Assembly: GCA_002368155.1 (NCBI GenBank)
Contig: AP018180.1
Location: 248,001-312,000 of the forward strand
Direction of reading: 5' to 3'
Length of the DNA: 64,000 nt
Source: Nostoc carneum NIES-2107
GTDB taxonomy: Bacteria; Cyanobacteriota; Cyanobacteriia; Cyanobacteriales; Nostocaceae
Shown: in pieces, positions 10,823 to 47,152 of the stretch
How positions within the stretch are numbered: the stretch's first letter is position 1
Layout of the letters: every line of letters starts with the position of its first letter
Position numbers and translations under genes: made by a program
Notes under the pieces: generated by a model
The model's database searches: none
What the model was told of the DNA's origin: nothing
What the model saw: the letters and a program-made list of their open reading frames with translations, nothing else

Positions 10823-12094
10823 ATGATTGTTTACGAGTTCAAAGTCAAAGGAAAAGATAGGCAGTATCGCGCTATTGATGAGGCAATTCGTACATCGCAA
10901 TTCATCCAAAACAAGTGTTTGCGCTACTGGATGGATAACGAAAAAGTAGGGAGATATGACCTCAATAAATACTGTGCGGTGTTAGCTGCTGAATTCCCTT
11001 TTGCTGATGAACTCAATTCAATGGCCAGACAATCTGCGGCTGAACGTTCTTGGAGCGCAATAGCTCGGTTTTACGATAACTGCAAGAAGAAGATTAAGGG
11101 TAAAAAGGGATTCCCGAAGTTTAAGAAAAACTGCCGTTCAGTTGAATATAAATCAACAGGGTGGAAGCTTTCAGAAACCAGAAAGGCTATAACTTTCTCT
11201 GACAGGAAAGGTATTGGGACTCTCAAATTAAAGGGAACCTATGATCTTAATTACTATGACATCAGGCTTCTTAAGCGAGTGCGCTTAGTTCGTCGTGCAG
11301 ATGGGTATTACGCGCAGTTTGCAATTGATATTGATGTCAAAATCGAAAGCCAACCTACAAATCAAGTAGTGGGTATCGACTTGGGGTTGAAGTATTTCAT
11401 TGCCGACAACAAAGGTAATGTAGAACCATCACCCCAGTTCTACCGCAAATCAGAGAAACAGTTAAACCGTGCTAACCGCAAAAAATCTCAGAAGTTTAGC
11501 AGCGAAAGAAAGAAAGCCAAACAACGACAATCAAATAATTACCACAAGGCTAGAAATAGATATGCCCGTAAGCATTTAAGGGTAAGTAGGCAGCGAAAAG
11601 AGTATTGCAAGAGATTAGCATACTCCGTCATCCAATCTCACGATTTGGTAGCCTATGAAGATTTAAATGTGAAGGGCTTGGTACGCAATCGACATCTAGC
11701 CAAATCAATTAGTGATGCTGGTTGGTATACTTTGCGCCTGTGGTTAGAATATTTTGGACATAAATATGGGAAGGTGACTATTGCTGTACCTCCCCATAAT
11801 ACGAGCCAAAATTGCTCTAATTGTGGTGAAAAAGTGAAGAAGTCTCTCTCTACCAGAACTCATATATGTCCCCATTGCGGATATGTGGAAGACAGAGATA
11901 CTAACGCCGCAATCAACATTTTGAGGTTAGGACTCAGTACGGTAGGGCATACCGGAACTTACGCTACAGGAGATTTGCCCTCTTGGGCGGTTGGCGCAAG
12001 CCTGCTGTCTAACGGCGAGTCTGTGAATGTAGAATCCCCTTCACAAAGCGTGCGGGGAGTGTCAAAGCAGTTTGTGCAGGAATTGCGAAATTAA
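10823..12094 (+). CDS. tnpB: TnpB (OrfB) RNA-guided nuclease of an IS200/IS605-family element
   Basis: The 423-residue protein has an N-terminal helix-turn-helix/OrfB_IS605 domain, with a KGFPKFKK motif near residue 95. A RuvC-like nuclease core follows: GIDLG (Asp186), AYEDLNVKGL (Glu279) and a zinc finger CSNC...CPHC (Cys331, 334, 349, 352). The last RuvC motif is DRDTNAAINI (Asp357/359). All catalytic and zinc residues are present, so the protein looks active. There is no TnpA transposase nearby, so the element is of the IS1341 (tnpB-only) kind and would need a transposase in trans. The last 50 codons overlap the element's right end, which in this family also encodes the omega RNA scaffold. 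The reading frame seems to run a few codons past the element end into flanking DNA. Confidence 0.93.
   Translation: MIVYEFKVKGKDRQYRAIDEAIRTSQFIQNKCLRYWMDNEKVGRYDLNKYCAVLAAEFPFADELNSMARQSAAERSWSAIARFYDNCKKKIKGKKGFPKFKKNCRSVEYKSTGWKLSETRKAITFSDRKGIGTLKLKGTYDLNYYDIRLLKRVRLVRRADGYYAQFAIDIDVKIESQPTNQVVGIDLGLKYFIADNKGNVEPSPQFYRKSEKQLNRANRKKSQKFSSERKKAKQRQSNNYHKARNRYARKHLRVSRQRKEYCKRLAYSVIQSHDLVAYEDLNVKGLVRNRHLAKSISDAGWYTLRLWLEYFGHKYGKVTIAVPPHNTSQNCSNCGEKVKKSLSTRTHICPHCGYVEDRDTNAAINILRLGLSTVGHTGTYATGDLPSWAVGASLLSNGESVNVESPSQSVRGVSKQFVQELRN
12030..12068 (+). ncRNA. Putative omega RNA 3' hairpin and right end of the TnpB element
   Basis: A CCCC (12036-12039) to GGGG (12054-12057) stem with inner CAC/GTG pairs is followed by GTGTCAAA. 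This hairpin-plus-tail arrangement at the 3' end of tnpB is typical of cyanobacterial IS200/IS605 right ends. By analogy, the guide segment would be the 15-20 bases starting near 12066-12069. The boundary is inferred, not proven. Confidence 0.5.
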
Positions 12095-20667: not shown

Positions 20668-21537
20668 ATGAGGCGTTGGAATTTATCTAAAGTTGTTTTG
20701 GCTGGTGTGTTTGCTCTCAGTTTTACTGCTGTACCCCTAAGTATGTCTGCCTCAGCCCAAAGTGGCTCTTCTGGTGGTGGCAGTTCTTCAGGTGGTAGCG
20801 GAGGTACAGGTACAGGCACTGGAAGTGGCACAGGCACCACAGGTAGCGGTTCTGGTTTAGGTACTTCCGGTTCTGGCACAGGTACCACAGGTAGTGGTTC
20901 TGGTTTAGGTACTTCCGGTACAGGTACAGGCACTACAGGTAATGGTTCTGGCTTGGGTACTTCTGGCACAGGCACAGGCACTACAGGTAGCGGTTCTGGT
21001 TTAGGTACTGGTACAGGCACAGGCACTGGCACTACAGGTAACGGCACTGGTTTAGGTACTGGTACAGGCACAGGCACAACAGGTAGCGGTTCTGGTTTGG
21101 GTACTTCCGGTACTGGCACTGATAGTACAGGCACAGGTTCCACAGGTAGCGGCATTAATAGCACAGGAACTGGTACAGGCACAACAGGTACTGGTTCTAC
21201 GGGTACTGGTAGTACAGGTGCTGGAACTACAGGTACTGGCACGGCTACCGATGGTACTGGCTCAACAGGTCTTGGCACTGATGGCACTGGCACCACAGGT
21301 ACTGATGGCACTGGTACCACAGGTACAGGAACTACAGGAACAGGCACAGGCACCACAACCGACCCCTCATTACGAGGAACTAGCGATGTCAGAGGCGATC
21401 GCGGCGGTTCTGATTGGGGTTGGTTAGGTTTACTTGGTTTAGCTGGTTTAGCTGGTTTAGCTCGTAAGCGCGAAAGACCCAAAGTTTATGCAGATCCTAA
21501 TCAAGTCACAGGTTCTGGTTCCTCAACAAGATATTAA
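20668..21537 (+). CDS. Secreted Gly/Thr/Ser-repeat protein with WGxxGxxG-type C-terminal sorting tail
   Basis: 289 residues. A signal peptide [19 protein letters not shown] ends near SASAQS. Residues about 32-235 are almost only Gly, Thr and Ser, built from units such as [16 protein letters not shown]. There are at least five [20 protein letters not shown] copies, with a tetrapeptide-like (GTGT) sub-period. The C-terminus has a short acidic stretch, then [16 protein letters not shown] followed by RKRE. This is the Trp-Gly-rich transmembrane plus basic-cluster layout of WGxxGxxG/CTERM sorting tails. It is therefore likely processed at the cytoplasmic membrane and displayed or released as a flexible, possibly glycosylated stalk. 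An AAGGA ribosome site lies about 10 bases before the ATG. The DNA repeats will make the length vary between strains. Confidence 0.8.
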
Positions 21538-21877: not shown

Positions 21878-22240
21878 ATGTTAGAAACAAAGCCATCCGA
21901 GGCTGAACCAGCTGTGATTGCAGCGGTTGCTGATTATTTCAAGGTGCTATCAGAGGTGAGTCGGTTACACATTTTAACTTGTTTAAAGTCAGGGCCGATG
22001 AATGTGATGGAAATTGCAGAAGCAACTGGCTTGGGACAGGCAAATTTGTCTAAGCATCTCAAAGTGTTAACTCAGGCAGGGATTTTATCTCGTCAGCCTA
22101 AAGGTACCAGTGCTTATTACGAGATTGCAGATCTGATGATTTTTGAACTCTGTGATTTAGCGTGCGATCGCATTAGTGAACGCATTCTACAACAGGTAGA
22201 AAGCCTCAAAGGTATAAGGGGCAATACAGCAGGTTTTTGA
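21878..22240 (+). CDS. ArsR/SmtB-family winged-helix transcriptional regulator
   Basis: 120 residues and dimeric by family. It shows the winged-helix core LSEVSRLHILTCLKSGPMNVMEIAEATGL, the recognition helix GQANLSKHLKVLTQAGILS (about 52-70) and the wing RQPKGTSAYYEI. The SmtB/ArsR metal motif (ELCVCD in the recognition-helix region) is absent. Three cysteines remain: Cys35 and two in the C-terminal helix, FELCDLACDRI (about 91-101). A thiol or redox sensor, or a metal site different from SmtB, is therefore possible. It faces psbA (D1') tail to tail. Its target is unknown; see the findings for a speculative link to psbA. Confidence 0.88.
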   Translation: MLETKPSEAEPAVIAAVADYFKVLSEVSRLHILTCLKSGPMNVMEIAEATGLGQANLSKHLKVLTQAGILSRQPKGTSAYYEIADLMIFELCDLACDRISERILQQVESLKGIRGNTAGF

Positions 22241-22407: not shown

Positions 22408-22440
22408 CAAAAATAAAAGCACCCTTAGCGCAAGGGTGCT
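22408..22440 (-). terminator. Rho-independent terminator of psbA
   Basis: Read leftward, AGCACCCTT pairs with AAGGGTGCT (perfect 9 bp, 5-base loop) and is followed by TTTTATTTTTG. It starts 43 bases after the psbA stop. Confidence 0.93.
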
Positions 22441-22482: not shown

Positions 22483-23565
22483 CTAGCTGGCGATGCTTGG
22501 TGCGGCTAGAGCGATTGGTTGAGCTTCACCAGAGGCTAAATCTAAGGGGAAGTTATGAGCATTGCGTTCATGCATAACCTCAATCCCTAGATTGGCTCTA
22601 TTGAGAAGATCAGCCCAGGTAGGAATTGTTCTTCCTTCGCTATCTAAAACAGAGCTGTTGAAATTGAAGCCATTTAAGTTAAATGACATGGTGCTAACAC
22701 CTAAAGCTGCAAACCAGATACCAACTACAGGCCAAGCAGCGAGGAAGAAATGCAACGCACGAGAGTTGTTAAAGCTGGCATATTGGAAGATTAACCGTCC
22801 AAAGTAACCATGTGCCGCTACGATATTGTAGGTTTCTTCTTCTTGACCAAACTTGTATCCGGTATTTGCAGATTCAACTTCTGTTGTTTCTCGAATGATG
22901 CTAGAAGTCACTAGAGAACCATGCATTGCGGAAAATAAAGCGCCTCCAAAAACACCTGCAACCCCTAACATATGGAACGGGTGCATGAGGATGTTATGTT
23001 CCGGTGAGAACACAATCATGAAGTTGAAGGTACCAGAAATACCCAGCATCATGCCATCAGAGAAACTACCTTGCCCAATGGGGTAAATCAACAATACAGC
23101 TGTCGCTGCTGCCGCAGGTGCAGAAAAAGCCACAGGAATCCAAGGACGCATCCCTAAACGATAGCTGAGTTCCCATTGCCGACCCATATAGGCATAAACG
23201 GCAAGTAAAAAGTGGAACACAATCATTTCGTAAGGGCCGCCATTGTAAAGCCATTCATCTAAAGAAGCAGCATCCCAGATGGGGTAGAAGTGCAAGCCAA
23301 TAGCAGCCGAGGTGGGAACTACAGTAGCAGAGATGATGTTATTGCCATAAAGCAGTGAACCCGTTACAGGTTCCCGAATCCCATCAACATCTACAGGAGG
23401 TGCTGCTACAAACGCCAATACAAACACAATCGCCGCAGTCAAAGCTGTAGGAATCAAGATGACTCCAAACCAACCCACATACAGCCTATTTTCCGTACTG
23501 GTTACCCAGTTACAAAATCGCTCCCACAAATTAGCGCTTGTACGCTTTTGTATAGTTGTAGTCAT
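22483..23565 (-). CDS. psbA: Photosystem II D1 protein, D1' (low-oxygen) isoform
   Basis: Reaction-centre D1 subunit of photosystem II in the thylakoid membrane, binding P680, pheophytin, QB and the Mn4CaO5 cluster. The 360-residue length is canonical. Tyr161, Asp170, Glu189, His190, His198, His215, Ser264, His272, His332, Glu333, Asp342 and Ala344 are all in place. A 16-residue C-terminal extension follows the CtpA cleavage site. Three positions define the isoform: Ala80, Leu158 and Ala286 instead of Gly80, Phe158 and Thr286. This triad is the published mark of D1', the form induced under microaerobic conditions. Residue 130 is Gln, as in low-light forms. Other departures from standard D1 include SPEHN for QAEHN and [12 protein letters not shown] for FHFLIGIFCYMG. 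It is monocistronic, with its own promoter and terminator. Confidence 0.97.
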
Positions 23566-23628: not shown

Positions 23629-23660
23629 ATTATATAACTATAAAGCTATATTGTTGTCAA
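23629..23660 (-). promoter_or_regulatory. psbA (D1') promoter with dyad between -35 and -10
   Basis: Read leftward, TTGACA (23660-23655) is followed after 18-20 bases by TATATAAT (-10 region, about 23636-23629). Between them lies an inverted repeat, ATATAACT-ATAA-AGCTATAT (23632-23651, one mismatch). A protein bound there would block or replace sigma contacts. The element lies about 65-95 bases before the psbA ATG. Confidence 0.55.
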
Positions 23661-23888: not shown

Positions 23889-23949
23889 TAAAACCTGTCA
23901 AACAGACCACCTCACTGATAAAATTACTTATCAGCTATTTAGTTAATAA

Positions 23950-25062
23950 ATGAACAAGTCTGTTATGACCCATGTCCTTCCTCCGCTACGGATTGGTAAA
24001 CATATTGCCCGCTATCCTATTGTTCAAGGTGCAATGGCTGTGCGTGTTGCGGGTGCGAAGTTAGCTGGTGCTGTTGCTAATGCAGGCGGAGTAGGTGTAA
24101 TTGCTTCTCTGGGACTGGGGTTGTATTCTCCTGATTTTGACCAACGCAAACGCGGTAGCTTTTTTACAGCGAATAAACTCGCTTTGATTGATGAACTAGC
24201 TAAGGCACGCAGTATTAGTCCAGATGGTGTAATTGGCGTAAATATTCTAGTTGCTACTAAAGATTTTCCAGTATTGGCTCAGACTGCTGCGGCTGAAGGA
24301 GCAGATTTAATTATTACTGGAGCCGGATTACCCCTAACTTTACCAGAGTATACTGCAGACTATCCTGATGTAGCGCTGGTGCCAAGTGTTTCTAATGTGG
24401 AAGCGGCGCAGTTCATCTGCCAAGTTTGGCAAAAACGTTACAATCGCTTACCAGATGCTTTTATTGTGGAAAATTGCCAGAAGGTAGGCGGACATTTTAG
24501 CCAGTGCGAACAGATTAATCCGCCAGGGTTTTCAATTGCGTCTGTAATTTCAGAACTACGGGAGTATTTTGCAAATCAGCTAGGTGTGAGTATACCGTTG
24601 ATTGTCACCGGGGGAATTTGGGATCGGGCTGATATTGATCAGATGTTAGCGATCGCAGCAGATGGTGTGCAAATTGGTACGCGCTTTATTACTACAGAGG
24701 AATGTGATGCCGATCGCCGTTATAAAGAATTTCATCTCCAAGCTTGTGCAGCAGACATTGTAACAGTACCCAGTCCTGTAGGCAAACCTAGCCGGGCTTT
24801 ACGTAATGCATTTGCGGAAAATGCGATCGCTGGTGCATCATCAATAGAACGGCGATGTATTGCCAATTGTTTAGAATCATGTCTGTGTCGTGATAGTGGT
24901 AAAACCTATTGTTTGCTACAAGCCCTTGCTAGAGCAGGACAAGGCGATGTAGAGAATGGTTTAATCTTTTCTAGCGCGAATGTTAGGTACACTGAGCGAA
25001 TCATGTCTATTGCCGAACTGATGGCAGAGTTAACCCAGCCTCAAACGGCGATCGCGCTTTAG
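23950..25062 (+). CDS. Nitronate monooxygenase / 2-nitropropane dioxygenase-like FMN enzyme
   Basis: A 370-residue TIM-barrel flavoprotein of the NPD family, which oxidises alkyl nitronates; FabK-type enoyl reductases share the fold. The start shows YPIVQGAMAVRVAGAKLAGAVANAGGVGVI. The FMN phosphate region is VTGGIWDRADIDQMLAIAADGVQIGTRF (about 217-244). A C-terminal cysteine cluster, CIANCLESCLCRDSGKTYC (about 298-316), marks a cyanobacterial and proteobacterial subgroup and could bind a metal or iron-sulfur centre. The start is ATG at 23950, with an alternative ATG five codons later. The following pentapeptide gene begins 23 bases after the stop, so the two probably form an operon. Confidence 0.85.
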   Translation: MNKSVMTHVLPPLRIGKHIARYPIVQGAMAVRVAGAKLAGAVANAGGVGVIASLGLGLYSPDFDQRKRGSFFTANKLALIDELAKARSISPDGVIGVNILVATKDFPVLAQTAAAEGADLIITGAGLPLTLPEYTADYPDVALVPSVSNVEAAQFICQVWQKRYNRLPDAFIVENCQKVGGHFSQCEQINPPGFSIASVISELREYFANQLGVSIPLIVTGGIWDRADIDQMLAIAADGVQIGTRFITTEECDADRRYKEFHLQACAADIVTVPSPVGKPSRALRNAFAENAIAGASSIERRCIANCLESCLCRDSGKTYCLLQALARAGQGDVENGLIFSSANVRYTERIMSIAELMAELTQPQTAIAL

Positions 25063-25085
25063 TTATTAATCAAAAGTTGAGTGAT

Positions 25086-25799
25086 ATGAATTTGGATGAA
25101 ATTCTTAAGCGTTACGGTACTGGAGAAAGAAATTTTCAGCGAGTCAATTTACAAGAAGCAGAGCTAACAAACGTCAACCTCAGTGGTGCAGATTTTAGCT
25201 ATGCTGATTTACGTCAGACTAGGCTCGGTAAAACCAACTTCAGTCAAGGTTGTCTGCGTGAAGCAGATTTAAGTGAATCTATCCTCTGGGGAACAAACTT
25301 AAGTGAAGCAGATTTAACTGGTGCAATCCTCAGAGAAGCAGATTTAACTGGTGCAAATTTACTTAAAACTAATTTAGAAGCAGCGAATTTAATCAAAGCT
25401 AGTTTATGTGGCGCTAATTTAACTGGTGTCCAACTTTCTCGTTCTTTGTTATTTCAAGCCGATTTACGCCCCAGTTCCGATCAGCGTACAGATTTAGGAT
25501 ATGCGATTTTAACGGGAGCAGACTTAAGCTACGCCGACTTGAGAGCCGCTTCATTGCATCATGCAAACTTAGATGGCGCAAAACTCTGTCGCGCAAACCT
25601 CAGTCGGAGAGTGCAGTGGGGAGATATGCCAGCAGATTTGACTGAAGCTAGTTTGCAAAATGCAGACTTAAGCTATGTCAATCTCAGTAACGCCATCCTC
25701 CGCAACGCCAATCTAAAAGGCGCAGACTTAACCGGAGCTATTCTCACAGATGTAGACTTCCAAGGCGCAATTATGCCTGATGGCAAAGTCCATGATTAA
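25086..25799 (+). CDS. Pentapeptide-repeat protein
   Basis: About 237 residues from the ATG at 25086 (a TTG at 25077 would add three). After NLDEILKRYGTGERNFQ, nearly the whole protein is A(D/N)LXX repeats (for example ADLSEA, ADLTGAILREADLTGANLL). About 35 coils are present, interrupted once near residue 130 by LRPSSDQRTDLGYA and again by SRRVQWGDMPADLTEA. It should fold as a right-handed quadrilateral beta-helix. There is no signal peptide, so it is cytoplasmic. Its function is unknown; DNA-mimic roles are known for some relatives but nothing here shows that. It follows the nitronate-monooxygenase-like gene closely. Confidence 0.9.
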   Translation: MNLDEILKRYGTGERNFQRVNLQEAELTNVNLSGADFSYADLRQTRLGKTNFSQGCLREADLSESILWGTNLSEADLTGAILREADLTGANLLKTNLEAANLIKASLCGANLTGVQLSRSLLFQADLRPSSDQRTDLGYAILTGADLSYADLRAASLHHANLDGAKLCRANLSRRVQWGDMPADLTEASLQNADLSYVNLSNAILRNANLKGADLTGAILTDVDFQGAIMPDGKVHD

Positions 25800-26394: not shown

Positions 26395-27249
26395 ATGTTC
26401 AATCAACTGCATAAATATATTCCCAGAATCCCCTCCGAATTGCGTTACAGAATAGATTTAATGCGCCACTCCAGGAAATTACCTGCGCTATCTCCACAAG
26501 ATAAGTTGATTGTTGATACTCTGCGTAAAGAAGGAGTTGTTACTACTTCCTTGCAAGATTTAGCACTTTCCAAAACAGCAGCATTGATGCCATCTGCTGA
26601 AAGCCAGTTAGCTAATATGGAATTAGCTTTAGCTGCTAAATACAAGAATCCACAAAAATTCGGTAGTGTTGAAAATCCAGCTTACCCGCAGATTTTTACT
26701 GTGACAGATTTATCTGAGTTTTATAACTGGGGAAGTGAACAAAGGTTACTGAATATTATCGAAAACTATATCGGTCTACCTATTGCCTTTCAAGGTGTAC
26801 ATTTACGACGAGACTTTGCTAATGATGAGCAATTAACCACAGAATTATGGCATTTAGATGCAGAAGACCGCCGCATGGTTAAGGTAATTATCTACCTCAA
26901 TGATGTGAGTGTAGAAAATGGCCCATTTGAGTATATTCCTAAATCTCAACTGTCATTAATTCAACAGTTGCAAATTCGCTCTAAGATTGTACCCAAAACC
27001 GCAAAAGGTTTAGTAGGTCTGAATGATGCAGAGATAGAAAAAATCGTGCCTAAGTCACTGTGGAAATCATGTCCTGGGAAAGCTGGAAGCATAGTTATTG
27101 CAGATCCCAGAGCTATTTTCCATCACGGTAAACCCCGTACACAATCACGGTCTACTCTGTTTTTTGTGTACACTGCTCAGAATCCTTTACGTCCAGAATG
27201 CTGCAAGCAATATAGCGATCAAACCTTTGCAAGAGTATTGCCAGCTTGA
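26395..27249 (+). CDS. Phytanoyl-CoA dioxygenase (PhyH)-like Fe(II)/2-oxoglutarate oxygenase
   Basis: 284 residues. The facial triad is readable: HLD at His153/Asp155 and the distal His in IFHHGKPR (His243 or 244). The Arg of that motif (Arg248) is placed to hold 2-oxoglutarate. Between them, MVKVIIYLNDVSVENGPFEYIPKS has the jelly-roll strand and the 'ENGP' turn typical of PhyH proteins. The family hydroxylates CoA esters, halogenates or modifies natural products, but no biosynthetic cluster is nearby, so the substrate is open. It is monocistronic. Confidence 0.8.
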   Translation: MFNQLHKYIPRIPSELRYRIDLMRHSRKLPALSPQDKLIVDTLRKEGVVTTSLQDLALSKTAALMPSAESQLANMELALAAKYKNPQKFGSVENPAYPQIFTVTDLSEFYNWGSEQRLLNIIENYIGLPIAFQGVHLRRDFANDEQLTTELWHLDAEDRRMVKVIIYLNDVSVENGPFEYIPKSQLSLIQQLQIRSKIVPKTAKGLVGLNDAEIEKIVPKSLWKSCPGKAGSIVIADPRAIFHHGKPRTQSRSTLFFVYTAQNPLRPECCKQYSDQTFARVLPA

Positions 27250-27721: not shown

Positions 27722-27774
27722 CTTGCCCAAAGAAATAGCACGAAAATCTTAATGTTTTGTTTATATTTTCAGAA

Positions 27775-30720
27775 ATGCCCGAAAAACCTAAACGCAAATT
27801 TGGCACGGGAGAAAGGTCTAAACTGAATGTGCTGAGTCTTGTCAAAGCGTTGCTAATTTTGTCAAAGAAAGAATTGCTATTAGAGGAATTAGCCGCTTCA
27901 GCAGTTAAGGTGGAATGGGTTTCAGATAAAGAATTGCAGGTAACTGGTAAATATCAGGCAAAAAACAAGACTGTTGAGGGTACAACTAAACAGGCTTTAT
28001 GGGAACTTGCTGAGAAAACAAATAATTCCTTACTACTTCCCCAACGTCAGCGAGAGAATGCTTCAGTTAATACCGAACAGAGACAAGCTGAGGTAGTGCA
28101 AAATGTATTTGAATATTTGGAAAATTTGGGAATTTGGAAGGATGAACGCCCTGAAAATAAGAATAATACACGATATTGGATATTCACCCTCAACTTAAAA
28201 CATAAAGATGCCTCAATAGAGGAAAATCTAAGAGTAGTTCAAGAGAAATTACAGTTAGAAACAGTACCTCAAATCATAGATACTAAAACTAGCATTGACT
28301 GGCGTGAAGTTTGCACCACTATGCTGCAAAGTCAGCAGGAAGCAGTAAGACTCAGACGCAAAGCAACAGAGCAAGGTTTTGAAATAAATGTTTATGTTCC
28401 CTTGGGGTTGGTGGAACGCAAACAACAGCAGCGCCGCCAGCAAGATGAACAGCCAGACAGAGAAAATGTTTATCAGTTAAGCGAAGAAGTCATTACTAAA
28501 ATCTATGAACATGACGCATTTCTCCGAGAAGTAATTGCACAACAGCCAAGGGGAAATAATCGGCATATTGCTATCATCGGTGAACCAGGAGCAGGTAAGA
28601 CTACTTTATTGAGTACCGTTGCTTCCTTTATCCACAAAAACACTGAAGATTTACCCATATTTATTTCTCTCGCCAATTTACAGGGAAGAACAATTGAGGA
28701 ATATTTAGTTAAGCAATGGCTTCCTGAAGCGATGCGATTGTTTAAATCTGATGTCACGCCAGAAATTGAACGTCAATTAATTGAGTGTTTTGCTAAAGGG
28801 AGAGTTTGGCTACTATTAGATGGCGTGGATGAAATTAGTGAAAATTCACCTGTGCAAGCATTAGCCAAAATTAATCAAGAACTGACAGCATCTCTGAGAC
28901 AGGGACGGGTGATTTTAACTTGTCGGTTAAATGTTTGGGATGCCAAAGTTAGTCATCCACTCACAGGGTTTAATACTTATAAAACGCAAGAGTTTCAAAC
29001 AGAACAAATTTATGACTTTATTCAGCAGTGGTTTGAGAGGGCTGGCAATTTACCAAAAGGGAAGATACTACAAGCAAAATTAAAAGCAACCAAACATAAA
29101 AATATTCGTAAATTTGTCAAAAATCCTCTGCGATTGTCGCTGTTGTGTCAAACATTCGATTTAGATAAGCAGGGAGAATTACCAAAAACAAAAGCTGCAC
29201 TTTACCAGAGATTTACTCGCTATTTTTATGAATGGAAGTCAGAGTTATTTCCTGAATTGTATCAATCTGATGATCTGAAGGATGAATTACACCAAGCTTT
29301 AAGCAGATTAGCTTTTGCAGGTATTAACAGCAGTGCGAGGTTTCGTTTGCGGCAGGAGTTAGCACATCAAGAAATGGGTGATAAATTACTTAAATTAGCT
29401 TGTGATGTAGGTTGGTTAAATTTAGTAGACAGAAGAGCAATAGATGATGAAAAAGTTTATGCTTTCTTCCACCCTAATTTCCAAGAATATTTTGCAGCCT
29501 TAAAGGTTAATGATTGGCAGAGATATTTTTTTAAACACGTTCCCGATAACCCAGCACAAGGAACCTATCGCGTTTTTGAACCGCAATGGATAGAAGTAAT
29601 CTTGCTGTGGTTCGGAAGAGAAGATGTAAGTAATGAGGCGAAAGAAGCATTTTTTCAAGCTTTGATAGAATTTGATGATGGCTGCGATAATGAATGCTTT
29701 TATTCGTCTCAAGCTTCCCATATAGTGGAAGATGGTCTACAAGAATTTCCCAATAGTATATTAAATAATGCTGTGGAGTATGGAATTGACGAATATGGAG
29801 ATATCGAATATGAACGTTATTTGTATACACTAACCAGCTATGAAAATCCATACTTGTATTCAGAAAATGTTGATATCGATAGCTACATTGATTTATTTCG
29901 ATGGTTAAACATAGTTAACACAGAAACGGAATCTTGGCATCTTTTTGGTGATTGGATTGGTGAAAACAATAATAATATAAAATTTCTTGATTATTTAGTA
30001 AAAAGATTACAAATTAAATATCAAAATCTAAACGAATTAATATTATTTTTAGGAGAATCAATAAAAAGTTGTAATAATTTACTGCGACTAGCAATTATTC
30101 AAAGTTTAAAAGAACTGATAAATGAGAAAAAATTGTCTAACGAAAATTTGTCATTAATTATTTATCACTTTAAAGAATATCCTGGAATTATTTATAATTG
30201 TGCCTTAAATATGGGCTATCCAGATTTCTATAATGCTTGGCATCAGCTAATTAATGAAAGCGCAAACATAAATATTCAAGAAGTAAGTCTTAGCCATCTT
30301 GACTTACCTCAACACTTGCAAGCTGCAATTAACAATGAATCTCAACTTAGCCAAAGCATTCACTTAATCTGTATCGACACCAGCAAATTTATTGAGCTAG
30401 ATAATCCAGCCAGCAAAATTTACACTGCCATCGTTAAAGCTGGCTGTCCTAAAAGTCTAGATAGTACACCAAAAACAATGGTGGAATTGCAAACTTATTG
30501 GGATTTGCTAGAAACTGACAAGCACGTAGTATTAGTTTTTCACCCAGGCACAACTAATACTACAGGCGAGATAACATACAGTGATGTGTTTCTCAATGCT
30601 ATTAGCAAATTTGAAGGTGCAATTTGTTTTATTAGTAACCCCATACCAAACTACAACCTCAGAGTCTTTGCACCTAACCAAGCAGTTGATGATGTTTTAG
30701 AATGGTTGCGGGTGTTATGA
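27775..30720 (+). CDS. NACHT-domain NTPase (NLR-like, candidate anti-phage protein)
   Basis: About 981 residues from the ATG at 27775 (987 from 27757; neither has a good ribosome site). Numbered from 27757, an N-terminal domain (about 10-170) of unknown type starts KPKRKFGTGERSKLNVLS. A linker with INVYVPLGLVERKQ (about 210-223), frequent in cyanobacterial NACHT proteins, follows. The NTPase shows Walker A GEPGAGKTT (275-283) and Walker B VWLLLDGVDEI (350-360). RVILTCR is the sensor strand, and the winged-helix region ends in FFHPNFQEYFAAL (about 569-581). Residues 600-820 are helical. The last 150 residues (SIHLICIDTSKF to the end) form an alpha/beta C-terminal domain like the NCAB type. Bacterial NACHT proteins of this layout protect against phage; the effector here is not identified. 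Confidence 0.88.
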   Translation: MPEKPKRKFGTGERSKLNVLSLVKALLILSKKELLLEELAASAVKVEWVSDKELQVTGKYQAKNKTVEGTTKQALWELAEKTNNSLLLPQRQRENASVNTEQRQAEVVQNVFEYLENLGIWKDERPENKNNTRYWIFTLNLKHKDASIEENLRVVQEKLQLETVPQIIDTKTSIDWREVCTTMLQSQQEAVRLRRKATEQGFEINVYVPLGLVERKQQQRRQQDEQPDRENVYQLSEEVITKIYEHDAFLREVIAQQPRGNNRHIAIIGEPGAGKTTLLSTVASFIHKNTEDLPIFISLANLQGRTIEEYLVKQWLPEAMRLFKSDVTPEIERQLIECFAKGRVWLLLDGVDEISENSPVQALAKINQELTASLRQGRVILTCRLNVWDAKVSHPLTGFNTYKTQEFQTEQIYDFIQQWFERAGNLPKGKILQAKLKATKHKNIRKFVKNPLRLSLLCQTFDLDKQGELPKTKAALYQRFTRYFYEWKSELFPELYQSDDLKDELHQALSRLAFAGINSSARFRLRQELAHQEMGDKLLKLACDVGWLNLVDRRAIDDEKVYAFFHPNFQEYFAALKVNDWQRYFFKHVPDNPAQGTYRVFEPQWIEVILLWFGREDVSNEAKEAFFQALIEFDDGCDNECFYSSQASHIVEDGLQEFPNSILNNAVEYGIDEYGDIEYERYLYTLTSYENPYLYSENVDIDSYIDLFRWLNIVNTETESWHLFGDWIGENNNNIKFLDYLVKRLQIKYQNLNELILFLGESIKSCNNLLRLAIIQSLKELINEKKLSNENLSLIIYHFKEYPGIIYNCALNMGYPDFYNAWHQLINESANINIQEVSLSHLDLPQHLQAAINNESQLSQSIHLICIDTSKFIELDNPASKIYTAIVKAGCPKSLDSTPKTMVELQTYWDLLETDKHVVLVFHPGTTNTTGEITYSDVFLNAISKFEGAICFISNPIPNYNLRVFAPNQAVDDVLEWLRVL

Positions 30721-46985: not shown

Positions 46986-47152
46986 AGCCGTTCATACCCC
47001 CGTTTTGTAATTCAGGTTTACAGCTTGACTCAATCCCAACTTAAATCTGGAAGCAAAAAAGCTGCAAACATAATTATACCCGAAAATATCAATACTAACC
47101 GCTAATTATAGCAGCTGTGTTGTTATTTCGGGCTTTGTTTTGTGCTTTTGAG

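Follow-up and report, generated by a model that had tools for sequence, protein, structure and literature searches.

The psbA gene at positions 22483-23565 (minus strand) of the Nostoc carneum NIES-2107 window, by which we mean the whole stretch of 64,000 nucleotides analysed here, encodes a 360-aa protein that belongs to the D1' class by its ORF translation, residues, profile, and tree position, within a subclade marked by S187-P188. We put at approximately 0.82 the probability that this gene provides a working D1' subunit kept for low-oxygen (perhaps sulfidic) periods. This reading is built on the protein's sequence class and place in the tree, on an intact gene under purifying selection, and on the conservation of both a promoter element and the neighbours; the silencing and induction steps that go with it are inferred. 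D1' genes are already in print, and this one adds a member to a known class; its surroundings, promoter and neighbours alike, support a tie between this D1' and low-oxygen genes.

A sequence-only reading of the window had placed psbA at these coordinates, which are correct, and its strand was corrected to minus: frame 1 of the plus strand of 22483-23565 contains many stops and the minus strand translates into the 360 aa. The protein scores 737 bits against the NCBIfam psbA equivalog (cut-off 596). A residue check found all three letters of the claimed A80/L158/A286 triad and the retained Gln130, and every cofactor ligand or site checked is intact, as had been claimed (H118, Y161, D170, E189, H190, H198, H215, S264, H272, H332, E333, H337, D342, and A344), including the full set of water-oxidation ligands (D170, E189, H332, E333, D342, and A344). 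P144, F147, and M173, which were absent from the earlier list, are also found in the protein, as in PsbA2 of T. elongatus. The gene is evolving under purifying selection, to judge from dN/dS values of 0.04 and 0.03 against two congeners and 0.05 against two further relatives. A hairpin resembling an intrinsic terminator (22418-22440, minus strand) starts 43 bases beyond the last base of the psbA stop; the hairpin scan found four in the window versus a mean of 1.4 in shuffles.

Assignment to standard D1:1/D1:2 (G80, F158, T286, and P173) was rejected by residues, M173, and tree, and assignment to rogue/sentinel D1 (loss of Mn-cluster ligands, ∼65% identity to standard) because the ligands checked are kept and identity to five standard copies of its genome is 80-82%; the same two features led us to set aside far-red D1 and ChlF. 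The D1' identity proposed earlier is upheld by residues, tree, and best PDB match, but the triad does not suffice as a definition, because the rogue-type psbA of the same genome (L008) and a second psbA copy in locus L013 carry A-L-A with P173. Among 45 distinct D1' sequences, L158 occurs in 45, A80 in 44, and A286 in 42; M173 is found in 45/45 by definition, as it was used as the D1' label. The corresponding counts among 73 standard D1 sequences are 0/73 for A80, A286, and M173 and 1/73 for L158. D1' and standard D1 are split by consensus at 25 positions, and the window protein follows the D1' majority at 21 of these, departing at 68, 79, 172, and 306. The suggestion that extra changes outside the triad may be clade-specific held for S187-P188, which marks a subclade, but not for residues 122-125, where A122 (35/45 D1', 0/73 standard D1), Y124 (39/45 D1'), and A125 (37/45 D1', 7/73 standard D1) are general D1' features. 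Residues 187-188 are Q-A in all 73 distinct standard D1 and are divided among S-P (16), T-A (16), Q-A (11), and S-A (2) in the 45 distinct D1'; the idea that S187-P188 is unique to this strain was rejected on the 16 S-P sequences. By codon search, S or T at 187 was found in 19 of 388 genomes drawn evenly from the class. Since both residues adjoin E189 and H190, they may plausibly influence the surroundings of the Mn cluster or TyrZ.

The genome of the strain (G000; 9.36 Mb, four contigs) contains eight psbA genes, and M173 occurs in the window copy only. Relative to the window protein, five of the copies are 80-82% identical, one is 77% identical, and one, on the 231-kb contig, is 65% identical. 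This last copy (L008, G000:C4:77806-78867) carries E189D, E333A, D342V, and S264A and still has A80/L158/A286; it is a rogue-like D1 of the rogue/sentinel type. Within the genus, a copy of the window gene at 98-100% identity was found in three of eight genomes (G000, G390, and G391), and the other five gave no match above 82%, some of their matches being fragments. A phylogeny had been named beforehand as the analysis that could refute the D1' assignment. In a tree of 78 rows, for which every third standard psbA of the set was taken, the window protein was placed in the D1' clade (42 rows, support 99/82) and not among standard D1, and within that clade in a subclade of 15 rows that all have S187-P188 (support 96/96); one S-P sequence (L255) lies outside the subclade. 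The other psbA genes of the same genome group with standard D1 (six) or, in the case of L008, with rogue-like D1.

The best PDB match of the window protein is 7yq2, photosystem II with "D1 2" (T. elongatus PsbA2), which shares A80, P144, F147, L158, M173, and A286 with it. At 43 sites of D1'-versus-standard consensus, PsbA2 is D1'-like at 17, standard-like at 22 (122, 125, 130, and 187 among others), and of another kind at 4. The Thermosynechococcus-type D1' (7yq2; L256 and L257) is a mosaic, mostly standard-like outside the core D1' sites, and gene conversion with PsbA1 is a possible cause. In the free tree, PsbA2 and two relatives stand beside PsbA1. Forcing all 45 D1' into one clade gave a tree that is better by 34.6 log units than the free one (p-AU 0.88). 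A separate origin of PsbA2 is therefore not claimed, and a single D1' clade including PsbA2 is not rejected by these sequences.

Upstream of the D1' gene lies a candidate operator, TATAGCTTTATAGTTATA (23633-23650, minus strand; -85 to -68 from the ATG), with 13 of the 14 fixed positions of TATAACT-N4-AGTTATA. It is the sole match with ≤2 mismatches in the window (shuffles: mean 0.30, at least one in 25/100). A candidate -35 element, TTGACA, is found at 23655-23660 (minus strand), the composite promoter match spans 23633-23660, and the palindrome sits between TTGACA and an AT-rich -10 region. The distance from TTGACA to TATAAT is 20, longer than usual, and a simple promoter scan that allowed spacings of 16-18 did not list this TTGACA. 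An alternative -10, TTATAT, is possible at spacing 17, and a MerR-like activator could use the spacing of 20. A protein bound to a palindrome in this position would block polymerase, as would suit a gene kept silent in air.

The box consensus was derived from upstream palindromes in 27 hand-picked loci, 19 of them with D1', and the subsequent census dropped upstream stretches shorter than 200 bases and identical ones. With ≤2 mismatches, the box precedes 31 of 44 distinct D1' genes versus 1 of 75 standard psbA (shuffles: 0/220 for D1'), and it was present in 13 of 25 D1' genes left out of its derivation. It was missing from 13 of the 44 D1' upstream regions, including those of the Thermosynechococcus-like L256 and L257, close relatives of PsbA2. 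Among the 31 box-bearing promoters, the box starts at -64 to -95 in 26 and further up in five, and an exact TTGACA lies 3-5 bases before it in 25. The same threshold gave matches upstream of acsF (14/39), sqr (5/12), petC (4/13), ho (5/35), the nitronate monooxygenase (NMO) gene (5/25), hetL (8/103), arsR (4/64), and a desaturase gene (1/19), and none upstream of hemN (0/31) or nrdG-like genes (0/14); shuffles gave 0 to 2 in each class other than D1'. Some of the ho, NMO, hetL, and arsR matches are sites in intergenic regions that these genes share with acsF or D1'.

An exact search of the 388 genomes with the composite TTGACA-N3-5-TATARCY-N4-RGYTATA, a pattern written after the D1' promoters had been viewed, returned 15 matches (reversed control: 0), 10 of them at promoters among those viewed and five at new places. 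Fourteen lie 48-85 bases before a psbA with M173 (13 with the full triad, one with G-L-A). The new places are four D1' genes (G077, the second copy in G152, G180, and G269) and, as the fifteenth match, a small gene that we read as DUF2892-like. A DUF2892 gene has been described beside psbA1 of Acaryochloris (PMC5295598); the D1 encoded by that psbA1 may be rogue-type. In the strain's own genome there are seven boxes with ≤1 mismatch, of which four precede D1', sqr (C1:73302), a standard psbA (C1:47008), and an NMO paralogue (C1:2.209 Mb), and three have no assigned gene. The reversed-pattern control gave 12, so the number of own-genome boxes is uninformative and they are telling by position only. 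At the standard psbA at 47008 (L003, L342; G80/F158/T286, E130), the box (G000:C1:46875-46892) starts 133 bases before the gene start, and this gene may be co-regulated with D1'. A 12-of-14 site was also seen where one acsF (C1:8.06 Mb) starts; the sqr and the three acsF genes of the genome lie outside the window. Two more sequences near the D1' gene are candidate operators: a perfect palindrome, CTGATAA-N6-TTATCAG, at 23915-23934 before NMO-hetL, and TACTTATTAAGTA before arsR, each kept in the window and in the same four congeners (L139-L142).

The neighbours of the D1' gene are an ArsR/SmtB-family regulator (21878-22240, plus strand), convergent with psbA, with an HTH_5/metalloregulator domain above cut-off and a C-x3-C in its last helix that is present in every aligned row; an NMO/FabK-like flavoprotein (23950-25062, plus strand), divergent from psbA with a common upstream region; and hetL, encoding a pentapeptide-repeat protein (25077-25799, plus strand; start probably 25086), which begins 14 bases after the NMO stop. 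Seen from psbA, the order is hetL<, NMO<, D1'>, ArsR<. L140 and L142, from the genus, share this order. So do two loci from the family, L123 and L124, in which sqr and petC are interposed (together with rhodanese in L124); the order is partly kept in many other loci, and ArsR relatives adjoin D1' in other lineages. Clustering of the ORFs around 30 D1' loci gave ArsR-like proteins at 14, a count favoured by three loci (L142, L146, and L155) that came via an ArsR search, followed by HetL-like (14), desaturase (10), SQR-like (9), NMO (8), AcsF (8), heme oxygenase (7), HemN (7), and PetC (7). AcsF, HemN, PetC, and HetL were named by NCBIfam above cut-off, the SQR match is below cut-off, and the labels heme oxygenase, desaturase, NrdG-like, and rhodanese reflect our own reading of the ORFs. 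In Acaryochloris and Synechocystis, the clusters around psbA1 are reported to contain rhodanese and petC genes (PMC5295598). Two further genomes of the genus, G389 (L139) and G393 (L141), kept ArsR-NMO-HetL and lost D1'. G389 retains ∼40 bases of the psbA 3' end and G393 the psbA upstream region, which indicates two different deletions, and the simplest reading is that the ancestor held D1' inside the cassette. Since both lost the gene yet kept the rest of the cassette, D1' is dispensable. Elsewhere in the window we noted a WGxxGxxG-CTERM domain protein beside the cassette (20668-21537), a PhyH-type oxygenase downstream of hetL (26395-27249) that was not noticed among the recurrent neighbour clusters of the 30 D1' loci, a NACHT STAND protein with the effector-associated domain EAD4 (27757-30720), perhaps a defence or signalling NTPase, and an IS605-type OrfB/TnpB-like protein (10823-12094).

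We take All3740 of PCC 7120 to be HetL, and alr3742 of the same strain to be the microaerobically induced psbA0. Judged from the tags only, the numbers All3740 (PDB 3du1) and alr3742 would imply a window-like gene order. The latter gene of Nostoc (Anabaena) PCC 7120 has been described as a psbA (PMC8147232). The window HetL scores 343.6 bits against NF047416 (cut-off 260), the same NCBIfam equivalog as HetL of PCC 7120, and is 76% identical to All3740 over 239 residues. NF047416 was found in 93 of the 388 genomes (92 above cut-off; 57 of 160 genera), with 95 genes in total. Within 8 kb of these 95 genes, by tblastn cut-offs of our own choice, we counted ArsR (37), AcsF (33), heme oxygenase (HO, 30), HemN (26), NMO (16), D1' (14), desaturase (12), NrdG-like (9), PetC (8), and SQR (7). 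At least one of AcsF, HO, HemN, D1', SQR, and NrdG-like lies near HetL in 48/95 loci; none of these six was found at 69 standard psbA loci, where ArsR occurred once, the flanks of this control reaching up to 6 kb versus 8 kb for HetL. None of the ten neighbour types was found within 8 kb of 33/95 HetL loci; 34/95 lie <7 kb from the end of the stretch fetched (often a contig end), where neighbours may be hidden.

HetL is present in 27 of 33 D1' genomes (M173 pattern) versus 66 of 355 others (p = 2e-13), and at the genus level in 22 of 24 versus 35 of 136 (p = 9e-10), in tests that ignore relatedness beyond genus. The M173 codon pattern misses some D1' genes, and nine more genomes were met through other searches; counting all D1' genomes met, HetL is present in 36 of 42. 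The six M173-pattern genomes in which HetL was not found are G088 and five of one genus, that of PsbA2. Most HetL genomes have HetL without D1'. HetL of PCC 7120 is known as a HetR-binding protein with a part in heterocyst patterning (PMC7476756), whereas its recurrent neighbours in our census are low-oxygen genes; hetL deletion was reported to leave heterocysts normal (PMC7476756; PMC7761841), and the heterocyst former Nodularia spumigena CCY9414 has been described as lacking hetL and having four identical psbA genes (PMC3610870). In the open-access literature searched, we found no report linking HetL with psbA, or a pentapeptide-repeat protein with hemN or heme oxygenase. The 48/95 HetL loci near low-oxygen genes, versus 0/69 standard psbA loci, suggest that HetL belongs to a low-oxygen response. 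Heterocysts are low-oxygen cells.

Which protein binds the palindrome was weighed from the same data. The neighbouring ArsR could be a repressor on TATAACT-N4-AGTTATA that senses redox state or persulfide via its cysteines, a tentative proposal that we hold to be somewhat improbable: its relatives stand beside D1' in several lineages, in either convergent or divergent orientation, the overlap of box and promoter is what a repressor site should show, and the C-x3-C is found in all aligned rows, but the D1' box of G109 and G186 goes with ArsR homologues of only 53-54%, G019/G036 have a 67% ArsR and no D1' box (a 12-of-14 site lies before arsR), the box is rarely found upstream of arsR itself (4/64), and ArsR persists in two genus mates that lack D1'. 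Of the candidate binders ArsR is the nearest, yet the box does not follow from its presence. Control by ChlR, a MarR-type low-oxygen activator, as in Synechocystis psbA1, is unlikely. D1' is reported to be induced under low oxygen, and ChlR to bind the promoter of its target Synechocystis psbA1 and activate chlAII-ho2-hemN (PMC4500134); psbA1 (slr1181) and that operon likewise combine a low-oxygen D1' with low-oxygen tetrapyrrole genes, and the palindrome also precedes some acsF genes. The published ChlR box, TTMCC-N3/4-GGWAA (PMC13421787), is, however, unlike the palindrome found here, and a site that overlaps the promoter better suits a repressor than an activator. With ≤1 mismatch, the ChlR box precedes 4/44 D1' genes versus 2/75 standard psbA, i.e., it is not enriched, and the window D1' is not among the four; this test is weak, as acsF, the expected positive control, has it in only 2/39. 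Because acsF, a known target class, scarcely shows the ChlR box in this test either, ChlR keeps a low but real probability.

The cue might be sulfide or a reducing state and not low oxygen as such, which we regard as a minority possibility. The box lies before sqr in the strain's own genome and before 5/12 sqr genes overall, sqr, rhodanese, and petC are found near D1', and proximity of sqr to group 2 and 3 psbA has been published (PMC5061849); on the other side, acsF and ho are part of a published low-oxygen operon, and some of them carry the box. That the gene is a constitutive or decaying copy, with its D1' letters kept through descent only, is very improbable: two congeners have lost it via different deletions, but dN/dS is 0.03-0.05, frame and ligands are intact, and the promoter pattern is conserved.

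For a working D1' kept for low-oxygen periods, the following sequence of events can be proposed. In air, a repressor would sit on the palindrome between -35 and -10 and the gene would be silent; a drop in oxygen, or a shift of the cell to a reducing or sulfidic state, would release the repressor, and D1' would then be made and take the place of standard D1 in photosystem II. If T. elongatus PsbA2, for which structural effects of M173 and F147 have been described (PMC9709244), is a guide, M173 would narrow a water/proton channel and slow late S-state steps, and F147 would remove one H-bond to PheoD1. As the candidate operator also precedes some acsF, sqr, and petC genes, D1' would be one output of a wider regulon, and the neighbouring ArsR, NMO, and HetL would belong to the same genomic module. 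We consider it an open contest, leaning slightly to the negative, whether a widespread low-oxygen/sulfide regulon of cyanobacteria (D1', acsF-ho, sqr, petC, and NMO) has TATAACT-N4-AGTTATA as its operator and is run by a regulator that is not ChlR, and whether HetL is part of this response and was later co-opted by heterocyst formers; its place in such a response is proposed because of its conserved genomic company. PsbA2, the structural model for D1', lacks 26 of the 43 letters that mark the D1' consensus found here. The composite promoter pattern, with 14 of 15 matches before D1' genes (four of them previously unseen), provides a handle for finding the regulator, and hetL gains a testable alternative role beyond heterocysts.
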